A DNA stretch of 64,000 nt, taken from NCBI RefSeq assembly GCF_038592905.1, contig NZ_CP151943.1:4848501-4912500 (forward strand), given 5' to 3'. The stretch comes from Neobacillus sp. FSL H8-0543. GTDB lineage: Bacteria; Bacillota; Bacilli; Bacillales; Cytobacillaceae. How positions within the stretch are numbered: the stretch's first letter is position 1; each line of letters starts with the position of its first letter. The position numbers were made by a program, and so were the translations under genes. The notes below the pieces were generated by a model. That model ran no database searches. It saw only the letters and a program-made list of their open reading frames with translations, and was not told where the DNA came from. Of the stretch, positions 39,551 through 43,188 are shown piece after piece.

Positions 39551-39756
39551 GCATAACAAAATTCGGAATTCTGAAAATTCTTTAATAAGTCGGAAAGACT
39601 CTATCGAAAAAATCAATAGAGATCATCGCATTTGTTTTTTAATAAAGGGATTTTTTGAGGACATCCAGTTAGGCATGGTTATGCCAATGCCCATTTATAT
39701 TTCACGGCGAAGCCAGAAAATATGGACGAATGTATAGTAAGAGGGGATAGTAACCT

Positions 39757-39921
39757 TTGAAAACTATTCCCTTAATTGAGGAATATTTCTTTGATTGTTC
39801 CGAAATTGTTCAGTCACTGATTGAGGGATTCTGGGATGGAAGCTTATTAAAAGTTCAGGTTAGCAACTTGTTTTGTTTACTAAGACTTTGGGATCAGTCC
39901 CTCAGGAAACAAAAGCATTAA
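39757..39921 (+). pseudogene. Short ORF running into the repeat, likely a gene remnant
   Basis: A TTG start with AGAGGGG ten bases upstream opens a 54-aa frame (IEEYFFDCSEIVQSLIEGFW and so on) that ends inside repeat copy 3. The sequence is not recognised. As with the DUF4386 gene at 20937, coding sequence appears to have been cut at the repeat. The region 39551-39756 shows no convincing gene. Confidence 0.3.
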
Positions 39922-39941: not shown

Positions 39942-40031
39942 AGCAAACCCCTCTAAAGATTGAGATACAACTACAAACTATGTATTATTACCAAAAACAC
40001 ACCAGAGTATTTCATAAAAGTATCAACTAAA

Positions 40032-40139
40032 ATGAATGATGATCCTGCTTTTACTGCGGAACTGTCCAAATACCATCATCAAAAAATAAAGGTTCCCAAG
40101 CATCAACCACCTAAAAGAGAATATCTTCAGGGGGGATAA
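40032..40139 (+). other. Possible small or remnant ORF
   Basis: ATG 40032 begins a 35-aa basic frame ending REYLQGG, but the frame is open further upstream (from about 39957) without a start or ribosome site. It has no recognisable family. It may be the end of a lost gene whose transcript stops at 40197-40233. Confidence 0.25.
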
Positions 40140-40196
40140 TGAGTTTGTATTTAAAGGTTAAGTATTATTCTAGGGCAAGGATAAAATGAATAAGAA

Positions 40197-40233
40197 GGTA
40201 GGTACAACCCAAAGGTTGTAGCTACCTTTTTTT
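40197..40233 (+). terminator. Terminator before the restriction-like cluster
   Basis: GGTAGGTACAACC and GGTTGTAGCTACC pair around CAAA (one mismatch), followed by seven T. It insulates the three-gene cluster at 40.3 kb from upstream transcription. Confidence 0.9.
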
Positions 40234-40328
40234 GTCGTTTAATAGTATTACTATTTTCCTATATTTATATGACTCCTAAGGCACAGATGGTATAATTTAA
40301 CTAAAATCTACAAAATAGGAGAATTTGA

Positions 40329-40844
40329 ATGGTTACAAACTCAGCTCAGATTTTTTCATTACCACGTAATCTACGAGGTAGAAGTATTCATCAAAATGTT
40401 ATACCGACTGTATGCAATTTAAAGAATATGCTAGATAAGTTGATTGTGATCAATGGAAATGAAGCTCTTCTGAAGCAATGGGAGAAGAGAAGCTACAAAG
40501 CCTATCAGATCGAGAAAATTAAATTAGCAGTGATGTTCGCTACTACAACGGAAAATAGAATTCAACTTATTAAACAACATATTCTAAGCGGCGAACCTAA
40601 TGATTTTGGCGCTAGCTGTATTGATATTTATTTGGTTGCTTATGTTGCAGAAAATTATCAGCCAGGGAAGCTAGCGTTTTTTGAATATGTAATGAAAAAT
40701 GGAATAACAGATAAATCCAATTCAGCACAAGCGATTTGGCAGGTAGGTAAAGGAGATGGAACCTATTTGGGTGTTTTAAACGATGATGGTTCTGTTAAGG
40801 ACTGGGGCTTTTTTGAAAAATGGATAAATGGCTTGGGGGAGTAA
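40329..40844 (+). CDS. Unknown 171-aa protein, first gene of restriction-like cluster
   Basis: I do not recognise this protein. It is soluble, has no signal peptide or membrane segment, and is mostly helical up to about residue 110. A basic stretch (WEKRSYKAYQIEKIKLAVMF) may touch nucleic acid, and a C-terminal aromatic-rich part (DGTYLGVLNDDGSVKDWGFFEKW) looks like a compact beta unit. AGGAG (40317-40321) precedes the ATG. The next gene begins two bases after its stop, so the two are almost certainly cotranslated and functionally linked to the modified-DNA reader. Confidence 0.7.
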   Translation: MVTNSAQIFSLPRNLRGRSIHQNVIPTVCNLKNMLDKLIVINGNEALLKQWEKRSYKAYQIEKIKLAVMFATTTENRIQLIKQHILSGEPNDFGASCIDIYLVAYVAENYQPGKLAFFEYVMKNGITDKSNSAQAIWQVGKGDGTYLGVLNDDGSVKDWGFFEKWINGLGE

Positions 40845-40846
40845 AA

Positions 40847-41248
40847 ATGTTAACTGAAGGAAAGATATATAGACGAAGAGATTTGCATGATAAATTTGGA
40901 GGTCAGCAGCAATCAGGAATTAGCACACCGAGTAAATTCCCGATGATTTTGATTTTTTCGGGAGAGAGTGGCAAGAATTACGGCTATACAGATGGTTGGC
41001 AAGGGAATAGCGTTTATTATTATACTGGTGAGGGCCAAGAGGGAGATATGAAATTCACTAAGGGTAATAAAGCCATTAGAGATCATCTCTTAAACGGGAA
41101 AGACATCTATTTATTCCAAAATAACAGCACGGGCCATGTGAAATTTGTCGGTGAAATGATTTGTACAGGCTACCATCATCGAACAGCACCGGATCGAAAT
41201 GGCCATAATAGAGAAGCGATCGTCTTTGAATTGAAGGAAAAGAAGTAG
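40847..41248 (+). CDS. Stand-alone SRA-like (ScoMcrA-type) modified-DNA-binding domain protein
   Basis: About 133 aa from ATG 40847 (GGGGGAG at 40837-40843). It resembles the SRA-like domain of ScoMcrA-type HNH endonucleases: LHDKFGGQQQSGIST, GYTDGW, YYTGEGQEGDM, GNKAIRDHLLNGKDIYLF, then TGYHHRTAPDRNGHNREAIVFEL. In those enzymes this domain recognises 5-methyl- or hydroxymethylcytosine. Here the HNH nuclease is absent from the chain, so cutting would have to come from a partner; the next gene encodes a nuclease-helicase. The family assignment rests on motif memory and is fairly confident. Confidence 0.8.
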   Translation: MLTEGKIYRRRDLHDKFGGQQQSGISTPSKFPMILIFSGESGKNYGYTDGWQGNSVYYYTGEGQEGDMKFTKGNKAIRDHLLNGKDIYLFQNNSTGHVKFVGEMICTGYHHRTAPDRNGHNREAIVFELKEKK

Positions 41249-41298
41249 AAACGATTACATAGAAGATTCATATTTTCCTGTATTGGAGATACATATCC

Positions 41299-43113
41299 AT
41301 GGAAACGAAGCAAGGTAAAAGATGTGGTTGGTCCGGTAGTATTACTCAATTTTTAGTGTTAGATGAATCGAATTTTCTTGCACATTTAGGTGATTTTATT
41401 GGTGATTTCAAAGAGGAACAGGTGGAAGCCTGGAGGAACAGCTATCACGTTTTACAACAGACACTCTCTTCCTATCAATCTGAGCCGTGGCAGCTGATTT
41501 TTGAATATGAACTACCTCGAGAGGGTGGCCGTCGTCCTGATGTATTATTACTTCTCCCAGGAGAACTGCTCGTGATCGAATTTAAAATGAAAGGAAATCC
41601 ACGTTCCGCTGATTATGAGCAGCTCTCAAGCTACGTTCGTGATTTTAATCATTATCATGAAGCCGTTGCGAAGTATAGCTTACAGGTAAGAGGTGCGCTC
41701 GTTCTAACCTATTTTAAAGAAGAGAAAATGCAAATAAACACAGAAAAGCGGTTATATATAACTACAGGTTCAGGCTTAGGTAAATTTCTAGCGCTACTGA
41801 AGAAAAACGCGAAGGGAAAATTGCTTGATAGCGACGAATTTCTGCAAGGATCATACGATAGATTACCCACAATTGTCGAAGGTGCCAGAGCGATTATGAC
41901 ACATGAGCCACTTCCTTCTATTAGAAAAGTGAACAATACCAATATTTCTCAGGTGCTTGAGACTCTTGTTTCTATTGTTGAAGAAGCAAAAAAGACGAAA
42001 ACGCACCATTTAGTATTATTAACTGGCGTTCCTGGTGCGGGGAAGACGTTAGTAGGTTTACAGTTTTCACATATGGTCGAAGATGCAGTCTATTTATCTG
42101 GTAATGGACCATTGGTGGATGTCCTCCAAGACGCCCTCGGAAATAAGACGTTTGTTCAAGCATTAAAGAACTTTAAATGGGAGTATCTAAAGCATCACGT
42201 GATCCCCGCGGAAAATATCTTTATTTTTGATGAGGCACAGCGGGCTTGGGATTCCAAGAAGATGAAGAAGCCTTTTTCTGAGCCAGATTTGATGGTGAAA
42301 ATCGCACAGGATCTAAAAGGTTGGTCCGTCATAATTGGCTTAATTGGCGAAGGGCAGGAAATATACGAAGGCGAAGAAGGTGGACTTCCGTTATGGAATA
42401 CGGCCATCAAGGATGGGCAATGGACCGTTCACTCCCATGAACATTTAGCCGGTCAATTTCCTCATGCCACTCATCATGTAACCCATCAGCATCTAAACTT
42501 AAATGTATCACTAAGAAGTCATTTGGCTCTTGGTTTGCACACTTGGGTTCACCATTTGCTAACTGGGAAAATTGATGAATGTACTGAGGAAACAAACCAA
42601 TTAAAAAAAGATCGTTTTACCTTGTATGTTTCTAGAGATTTAGAACAGATCAAGGACTTTGTAGGTACACGATATCAGGGGCAGGCTAAACAGTTCGGGT
42701 TAGTCACTTCCTCGAGAAGGGAATATGGTATTCAACACCCTTATCATTTTGTTAAGGGTTTACCTATTGCCTCCAGGTATACAACAAAACCCTATGTATC
42801 CTACTTTAACCACACTCCATCAGACTACTATTCTTCTACACTACAATTTGCCGCTTCAGAATTTGAAACGCAGGGATTAGAGCTTGATTTAGCGGTGGTT
42901 TGCTGGGGCTACGATTTAACTTGGAATGGTAGAGAATGGACGGACCATTTCCAGGACAGAAATCTAAACGATCCAAAAAGGATTCGACTAAATAGCTATC
43001 GCGTCTTACTAACAAGAGGGCGGGATGGGATGATTATCTATATTCCTGATATCCCCCATCTTGATGGAACCTGGTCACTTTTTAAAGTGATTGGTGTTGA
43101 GGAATTAAGGTGA
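41299..43113 (+). CDS. PD-(D/E)XK nuclease fused to DUF2075 P-loop ATPase/helicase
   Basis: 604 aa. The N-terminal part has a nuclease core, D81 (RRPDVLLLL) and E94-F-K96 (LLVIEFKMKG), the D...ExK pattern of the PD-(D/E)XK fold. Residues about 235-600 form a DUF2075-type SF1-like ATPase with Walker A GVPGAGKT (243-250), Walker B IFIFDEAQRAW (D311, E312), an LIGEGQEIYEGE switch segment and a late ELDLAVVCWGYD / YRVLLTRGRDGMIIYIP motif. It is 50 bp after the SRA-like gene and followed by a terminator, so the three genes form one unit. It is expected to be the effector that moves on and cuts DNA. Confidence 0.85.
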   Translation: METKQGKRCGWSGSITQFLVLDESNFLAHLGDFIGDFKEEQVEAWRNSYHVLQQTLSSYQSEPWQLIFEYELPREGGRRPDVLLLLPGELLVIEFKMKGNPRSADYEQLSSYVRDFNHYHEAVAKYSLQVRGALVLTYFKEEKMQINTEKRLYITTGSGLGKFLALLKKNAKGKLLDSDEFLQGSYDRLPTIVEGARAIMTHEPLPSIRKVNNTNISQVLETLVSIVEEAKKTKTHHLVLLTGVPGAGKTLVGLQFSHMVEDAVYLSGNGPLVDVLQDALGNKTFVQALKNFKWEYLKHHVIPAENIFIFDEAQRAWDSKKMKKPFSEPDLMVKIAQDLKGWSVIIGLIGEGQEIYEGEEGGLPLWNTAIKDGQWTVHSHEHLAGQFPHATHHVTHQHLNLNVSLRSHLALGLHTWVHHLLTGKIDECTEETNQLKKDRFTLYVSRDLEQIKDFVGTRYQGQAKQFGLVTSSRREYGIQHPYHFVKGLPIASRYTTKPYVSYFNHTPSDYYSSTLQFAASEFETQGLELDLAVVCWGYDLTWNGREWTDHFQDRNLNDPKRIRLNSYRVLLTRGRDGMIIYIPDIPHLDGTWSLFKVIGVEELR

Positions 43114-43156: not shown

Positions 43157-43188
43157 GCACCATTCCATATAGGGAATGGTGCCTTTTT
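43157..43188 (+). terminator. Terminator after DUF2075 gene
   Basis: GCACCATTCC and GGAATGGTGC pair around ATATAG, followed by CTTTTT. It closes the three-gene cluster. The spacer to 43341 otherwise contains only AT-rich sequence and a distant GACATTCAT/ATGAATGTC inverted pair. Confidence 0.9.

Follow-up and report, generated by a model that had tools for sequence, protein, structure and literature searches.

Modification-dependent (type IV) restriction has known multi-part forms that work with a nucleoside triphosphatase (NTPase), such as McrBC and GmrSD. Enzymes in which an SRA- or SBD-type reader is joined to an HNH nuclease have also been surveyed, and the text of that survey does not use the word "helicase" (PMC7461809). 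An SRA domain flips the modified base out into a pocket, which in the SRA-HNH endonuclease TagI has Tyr55 and Tyr67, with Asp58, as its lining (PMC6212794). Near BREX, wHTH/SRA-HNH nucleases have been reported to act as auxiliary effectors, and domains resembling BrxA have been reported from across the BREX types (PMC12839542) and within YprA-family helicases (PMC12458937). Here I describe a locus of Neobacillus sp. FSL H8-0543 in which an SRA-type gene of this kind stands alone, between the gene of a small helical protein and that of a Schlafen-type nuclease-helicase. The locus lies in a stretch of 64,000 nucleotides, analysed as a whole and called the window, from a 5.3-Mb genome on one contig. 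An earlier reading of the same DNA, made from its letters alone (the sequence-only reading), had described three tightly spaced genes. This is borne out: genes 1 to 3 (Table 1) all have intact open frames on the plus strand, with genes 1 and 2 two bases apart. I propose, with a probability of about 0.5, that they make up a modification-dependent (type IV) restriction module that needs ATP and is divided over separate proteins.

The SRA protein and the nuclease-helicase

Gene 2 encodes a chain consisting of an SRA domain only, 133 to 142 amino acids long, without a nuclease, as had been claimed. A start at 40820 would give 142 residues and overlap gene 1; the ATG at 40847, which gives 133, appears to be the better one, lying two bases past the gene 1 stop and preceded by GGGGGAG. 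The protein matches the PADLOC profile mREase_IV (E 3.4e-5), its family profile retrieves ScoMcrA chains, and its identity to the SRA portion of one SRA-HNH protein is 51% over 127 amino acids. Gene 2 itself has no Pfam match at E ≤ 1, and P0123, a protein 85% identical to it, matches SAD_SRA with an E value of 5.9e-4, below the Pfam cut-off. On this sequence evidence I assign gene 2 to the SRA/SAD family. Residues Y47, D49 and Y59, which probably correspond to Tyr55, Asp58 and Tyr67 of TagI with the spacing off by one, recur in every one of 15 aligned relatives; SRA-HNH proteins make up half of this set. A protein search restricted by length returned nine small relatives of gene 2, and viral contigs yielded none. 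Compared with the corresponding gene of Bacillus sp. MRMR6, the ratio of nonsynonymous to synonymous substitution rates (dN/dS) is 0.09 by the NG86 method, with dS at 1.4, near saturation. Gene 2 is therefore under purifying selection, in an estimate averaged over the whole time since the MRMR6 split.

Gene 3 scores 188.7 bits against the Pfam family SLFN-g3_helicase (PF09848, cut-off 24), which I take to be the family once named DUF2075; relatives carry the DUF2075 name in the sources. It also matches PADLOC PDC-S41 over its whole length (E 4.4e-119, profile positions 3–632 of 657). The nuclease and Walker motifs that the sequence-only reading had picked out proved to be conserved: D81, E94, K96 and the Walker A/B residues do not vary across any of 34 alignment rows, the window included, and the 18 sequences of a wider set all have E69, D81, E94, K96, Q108 and the Walker residues. 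The C-terminal R573/R575 are absent in one of these 18, from locus L048, where the frame is split. The N-terminus of gene 3 thus has the conserved D...(D/E)-x-K of PD-(D/E)XK nucleases, with weak, sub-threshold matches to Pfam NERD and HSDR_N. Searched against solved structures, gene 3 gave no convincing match by sequence (best E 0.33) and none by profile at E ≤ 0.01. Its dN/dS against MRMR6 is 0.11 (NG86), and it is therefore also under purifying selection. As a separate observation, a second family of open frames of about 615–620 amino acids weakly resembles the ATPase part of gene 3 (26–32% identity), for example at L003 (G000:C1:4779793-4780149) and at similar places in other genomes.

Genes beside the nuclease-helicase

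I compared the neighbours of gene 3, over 4 kb on each side, at 14 non-viral loci: the window, MRMR6 (L061), L046–L052, L128–L131 and the plasmid locus L063. Fragmentary loci were dropped before the count (L053, L057, L058, L059, L020 and L132, from G121, G157, G063, G137, G003 and G628), as was L064 (NZ_CP102590), apparently the same record as L051. L048 was retained even though its gene 3 has diverged and is broken into two frames (590 + 92 amino acids). Matches from a Persicobacter plasmid (28% identity) and weak matches (about 26–32% over about 90–150 residues, such as L003, L016–L019 and L021–L029) did not enter the comparison. An SRA-bearing gene lies near gene 3 at eight of the 14 loci (the window, L061, L046, L047, L048, L049, L129 and L130), at six of them as an SRA-HNH fusion, and an HNH gene or its remnant lies within 1.2 kb of gene 3 at 12, namely these eight, L050–L052, where it is an HNH-NUDIX gene, and L128. 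Considered as a possible SRA, the N-terminal part of the HNH-NUDIX gene gave an alignment of only 30%. Directly before gene 3, on the same strand, the SRA or SRA-HNH gene is found in the window, L061, L048, L129 and L130, and in L129 NUDIX, SRA-HNH and gene 3 follow one another in a run with overlapping ends. In L046 and L049 the SRA-HNH gene is transcribed away from gene 3, and in L047 the two genes converge; with these orientations they share no operon there. On the Exiguobacterium plasmid (L063), gene 3 is adjoined by McrC and an AAA protein (McrBC).

The same link is seen from the side of the SRA genes. In 193 genomes of the family there are 12 distinct SRA places (13 rows, two of which are one gene), and six of the 12 adjoin a gene-3 relative. 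By a rough estimate this is far above chance, far less than one such adjacency being expected from fewer than ten full-length gene-3 genes in 193 genomes of several thousand genes. Since the link between SRA and cutter recurs, the split type IV system put forward earlier is partly supported; what does not stand is the self-contained trio, as an HNH gene belonged to the cassette (see below). Two diverged relatives on viral contigs have DNA methyltransferase neighbours: in L188 the gene immediately upstream of gene 3 encodes a C5 cytosine methylase, and in L187 an N6/N4 DNA methylase gene lies two genes upstream. This looks as though one cutter could also work in ordinary restriction-modification; it too is a restriction setting and counts in favour of the proposed module. 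NUDIX genes, nearby or in fusions, accompany gene 3 in L048–L052, L129 and L130, and MazG genes do so in L047, L052 and L130; nucleotide-clearing enzymes seem, by their genes, to be regular companions of these islands. MazG genes or fusions also recur beside restriction-type helicases and McrB-like genes more widely (L047, L052, L130, L133 and L085–L091).

The lost HNH gene and gene 1

A fourth gene once preceded the three. Using tblastn, residues 257–300 of the 309-residue HNH protein of MRMR6 (HNH309) were located at window positions 39999–40130 (82% over 44 amino acids, E 8.7e-19), and the window from 39999 to 40307 shows a 79% nucleotide match to MRMR6. In MRMR6 the HNH, SRA and helicase genes are kept, gene 2 being open and gene 3 open up to codon 554, while gene 1 is only a stub: its final 21 residues survive, at 62% identity, in the space that separates the HNH gene from gene 2. 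A decayed second copy is present on the chromosome of the window itself, about 3–8 kb beyond its end (L062:5397-10752, or G000:C1:4915397-4920752). There tblastn identified HNH residues 267–309 at L062:10271-10399, followed by residues 157–171 of gene 1 and residues 1–47 of gene 2; a gene-3 fragment (residues 27–75) lies about 5 kb before these. Nucleotide alignment of the three places revealed in common the HNH 3' end, the hairpin region (in part), the start of gene 2 and the promoter-like stretch, of which GGTATAATTTAACTAAAAT is identical across the three copies. Nearly all of gene 1 is missing at two of the three, MRMR6 and the second copy. The order HNH-gene 1-SRA(-gene 3) is thus seen in three copies, and the simplest history would be that a cassette HNH-gene 1-SRA-gene 3 shed different parts at different places. 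HNH309 has an HNH_2 domain, and its nearest solved chain is 6yex (E 1.3e-12, residues 185–308). Its first 170 residues, which have no domain assignment, turned up at only three places when the compared loci were searched over 9 kb: MRMR6, the Virgibacillus-type locus L128 (64% over 144 amino acids), where the gene is transcribed away from gene 3, and L047, where a fragment adjoins gene 3.

Some further observations concern this cassette. The same short sequence, GCNTTARCGCACYGGGGGRCT, is found at window position 39915 and at L062:10716, near the truncations of the HNH gene and of the second-copy gene 2 respectively; a regular-expression scan of the loci then compared found it at those two places only, and it is perhaps the end of a mobile element. 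A clean empty site was sought in G150 and G158 and rejected, as the right flank matches from 43349 on and the left flank does not within 14 kb. Near the MRMR6 cassette, L061:3738-7502 encodes a 1,254-residue DUF4011 helicase with a REase_MTES_1575 domain (PADLOC PDC-S37, E 1.8e-207). Among metagenome relatives, P0007 (gene 1) and P0122 (gene 2) each have a longest contig of 1,702 bases, and P0124 (gene 2) and P0134 (gene 3) each one of 3,287 bases, which hints at intact pairs of these genes.

The sequence-only reading had seen the three genes as insulated by terminators. Terminator-like sites are indeed present on both sides (Table 1), but the region contains four of them against a mean of 2.9 (standard deviation 2.0) in shuffles, and the promoter-like sites likewise do not exceed shuffled counts, so the pattern scan alone is no evidence. 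Moreover, since the upstream hairpin sits behind the remnant of the lost HNH gene, the supposed insulated cluster is a truncated four-gene locus. Further upstream, window positions 39677–39841 match an AAA_5 ATPase gene of the defence island L047 at its 3' end (68% at the nucleotide level) and are perhaps a relic of another defence gene.

Table 1. Positions of the genes, remnants, domains and candidate signals of the locus in the window.
Feature	Position	Strand	Description
HNH-nuclease gene remnant	39999..40139	+	last ~46 codons and stop
Terminator-like hairpin behind HNH remnant	40203..40220	+	pattern scan
Promoter-like site	40269..40296	+	ATGACT-16-TATAAT, TG before second hexamer; pattern scan, 10/12 matches
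Gene 1	40329..40844	+	171-aa predicted helical protein, weak BrxA-like fold; family often MazG-fused
Gene 2	40847..41248	+	stand-alone SRA-type predicted modified-base reader, 133 aa from ATG 40847
Gene 3	41299..43113	+	604-aa nuclease-helicase, PDC-S41 / Schlafen group 3 family
PD-(D/E)XK motif region of gene 3	41505..41622	+	E69, R79-P80-D81, E94-x-K96, Q108; conservation, weak NERD and HSDR_N matches
SLFN-g3 helicase domain of gene 3	42007..43050	+	residues 237-584
Terminator-like hairpin after gene 3	43157..43182	+	10-bp stem and T run; pattern scan

Gene 1, which had been called unknown, indeed has no family in Pfam (E ≤ 1), NCBIfam or PADLOC. Structure prediction suggests an all-helical protein, whose nearest solved folds, weakly, are BrxA DNA-binding proteins. 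A BrxA homologue at the level of sequence was rejected (hhalign probability 0.3% against 18 BrxA sequences, and no match to Pfam BrxA, PF08849); no BrxA match was found anywhere in the genome, and a fold search of BFVD returned nothing at E ≤ 0.001. Synonymous differences from MRMR6 are saturated in gene 1, so that no dN/dS ratio is given. Its relatives are often fused to MazG, and fusions to MazG- or HIT-type enzymes occur. It is present in 19 of the 193 family genomes; a profile search of 398 genomes sampled from the phylum found it in 2, one of them the window's genome. That it is a phage or plasmid gene was considered and rejected, as tblastn against 50,697 records from phages and 72,556 from plasmids gave no match; two peptide patterns found no copy in viral contigs.

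The surroundings of gene 1 were read at 16 other loci, from 15 of the 18 other genomes (fragments in G015, G065 and G100 left out) and L133. At seven of these (L085–L091) it stands behind a pair of large genes, which in L089 encode an AAA_5 protein that matches PDC-M26A, together with a DUF2357-PDDEXK_7 protein; the counterpart of this pair in L058 is a McrB_N-AAA protein with the same DUF2357 protein. Its neighbours are GmrSD_N and UvrD genes in L092, and in L133 a MazG gene and a PLD-helicase matching PADLOC mREase_IV. Restriction-type genes thus adjoin gene 1 at nine of the 16 loci. Near it in L093, L095 and L098 lies either a gene that weakly matches PDDEXK_4 or one related to a PDC-S11 gene, and no defence neighbour was noticed in L094, L096, L097 and L099. 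From these neighbourhoods, gene 1 lies near restriction-type genes, and not specially near genes 2 and 3. The order gene 1-SRA is found again in the second copy; elsewhere gene 1 mostly has other restriction-type company. Since it has been lost in MRMR6, where genes 2 and 3 are largely open, it may be dispensable or decaying there.

Readings of the locus and known systems

In the proposed restriction module, the gene 2 protein would flip out and recognise a modified base in incoming DNA, most likely 5-methyl- or 5-hydroxymethylcytosine. Gene 3 would be recruited to, or licensed at, this site through contact with the SRA protein, would move along or unwind the DNA by means of its Schlafen-type helicase, and would cut it with its PD-(D/E)XK domain, with a presumed effect against phage. 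Gene 1, from the same operon, would bind DNA as a small accessory or control protein. The HNH nuclease was probably once a fourth member and, as it has been lost, gene 3 would be the only cutter left in the window.

Several points weigh against this. Although SRA with gene 3 recurs, the intact trio was found only in the window's genome among the 193 family genomes. In MRMR6, gene 3 is interrupted by an in-frame stop (codon 554 of 606) and gene 1 is gone, so that one of the two best loci is decaying. The 14 loci are not all independent (L050 and L051 are 97% alike in gene 3, and L047 and L048 belong to one genome), L131 has no restriction-type neighbour among the partners searched within 4 kb, and the base preference of an SRA domain cannot be read from its sequence. 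The fold comparison of the gene 3 model (pLDDT, the predicted local distance difference test, 86.5) covers mainly residues 187–604, and barely residues 1–186. Finally, within three open reading frames (ORFs) of the gene-3 copies in viral contigs there is no SRA, HNH, NUDIX or MazG relative, either at the five near-identical copies L181–L185 (95.6–99.8% mutual identity, 90% to the Bacillus cereus-group protein P0210) or at the diverged L186–L190 (L191 did not pass the profile and was left out); an HNH-looking ORF near L181 has no Pfam match. An SRA reader is therefore not obligatory for gene 3.

These viral copies favour the main rival, in which gene 3 is a self-sufficient effector, abortive or degrading DNA or RNA broadly, genes 1 and 2 have a promoter or an island in common with it but are otherwise independent, and the SRA protein with the lost HNH nuclease made up the real type IV enzyme. 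That SRA and HNH form one chain in several relatives, that HNH309 and SRA stand side by side in MRMR6, and that SRA-HNH genes can be divergent from or convergent with gene 3 all agree with it, as does the name PDC-S41, which I read as that of a single-gene candidate in PADLOC. Yet gene 2 is intact in the window, where the HNH gene is gone, and has been under selection since the MRMR6 split; the same-strand placement of SRA or SRA-HNH directly before gene 3 at five loci, and an adjacency far beyond rough chance expectation, also speak for a connection, and I consider this rival rather doubtful. It is still more improbable that the locus has no function at present and is a cassette in decay, which has lost the HNH gene here, gene 1 in MRMR6 and most of its length in the second copy: the remnants at three places, the MRMR6 stop and the possible mobile-element end close to two truncation points would fit, but the three frames of the window are open with their motifs intact, dN/dS is about 0.1 for genes 2 and 3, and the promoter-like stretch has stayed identical in three copies. 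Somewhat more plausible than either, though tentative, is the narrower idea that gene 1 is a nucleotide-metabolism or regulatory protein in its own right, a chance neighbour of gene 2 and not a DNA-binding partner. Its MazG- and HIT-fused relatives, its frequent occurrence without genes 2 and 3, its removal from MRMR6 and the missing sequence support for BrxA suggest as much, against which stand the two-base spacing of its stop from the gene 2 start, the recurrence of this order in a copy that has decayed, and the restriction-type genes at most of its other loci.

The restriction module can be extended, more speculatively, to a modular four-part restriction system of the Bacillales, in which an HNH nuclease and a Schlafen-type nuclease-helicase would work with a free SRA reader and with gene 1 as a BrxA-like adaptor that binds DNA. 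Reader, cutter and motor would be chains of their own, which might be fused, exchanged or lost between genomes, and NUDIX or MazG enzymes, which are near parts of the module or fused to them in 7 of 13 other loci, might clear modified nucleotides made by phage or freed by cutting. Bacteria very commonly have Schlafen-type helicase proteins that carry a nuclease motif (at least 7,729 relatives were scored), and the recurrent SRA/HNH link offers a testable hypothesis for them, namely that they are ATP-driven cutters of modification-dependent restriction. In the open-licence literature I found no paper giving the gene 3 family a function and, with few preprints covered, none on the pairing of SRA with gene 3, which is not proof of novelty.

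Among known systems, McrBC and GmrSD differ in that no McrB GTPase, McrC or GmrSD domain is found in genes 1 to 3 (Pfam, E ≤ 1), and BrxA of BREX in that gene 1 has neither a Pfam BrxA match nor profile-profile support from the 18 BrxA sequences. The SRA-HNH endonucleases ScoMcrA, TagI and ScoA3IV have an SRA reader of the same family as gene 2, but carry SRA and HNH in one chain, whereas gene 2 is SRA alone and HNH has its own gene in the cassette, reduced here to a remnant. These known enzymes are moreover described as NTP-independent (PMC6212794), whereas the neighbour of gene 2 is an ATPase-nuclease. Gene 3 is a member of PDC-S41 by profile, and the PADLOC model describes a lone protein without the recurrent SRA, HNH and NUDIX partners. 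From human SLFN11 and SLFN14, with which its helicase half was compared, gene 3 differs by the PD-(D/E)XK motif in its N-terminal half, the Schlafen core being a different nuclease. If the proposed module is real, it would be a bacterial counterpart in which a Schlafen helicase is tied to a DNA reader.

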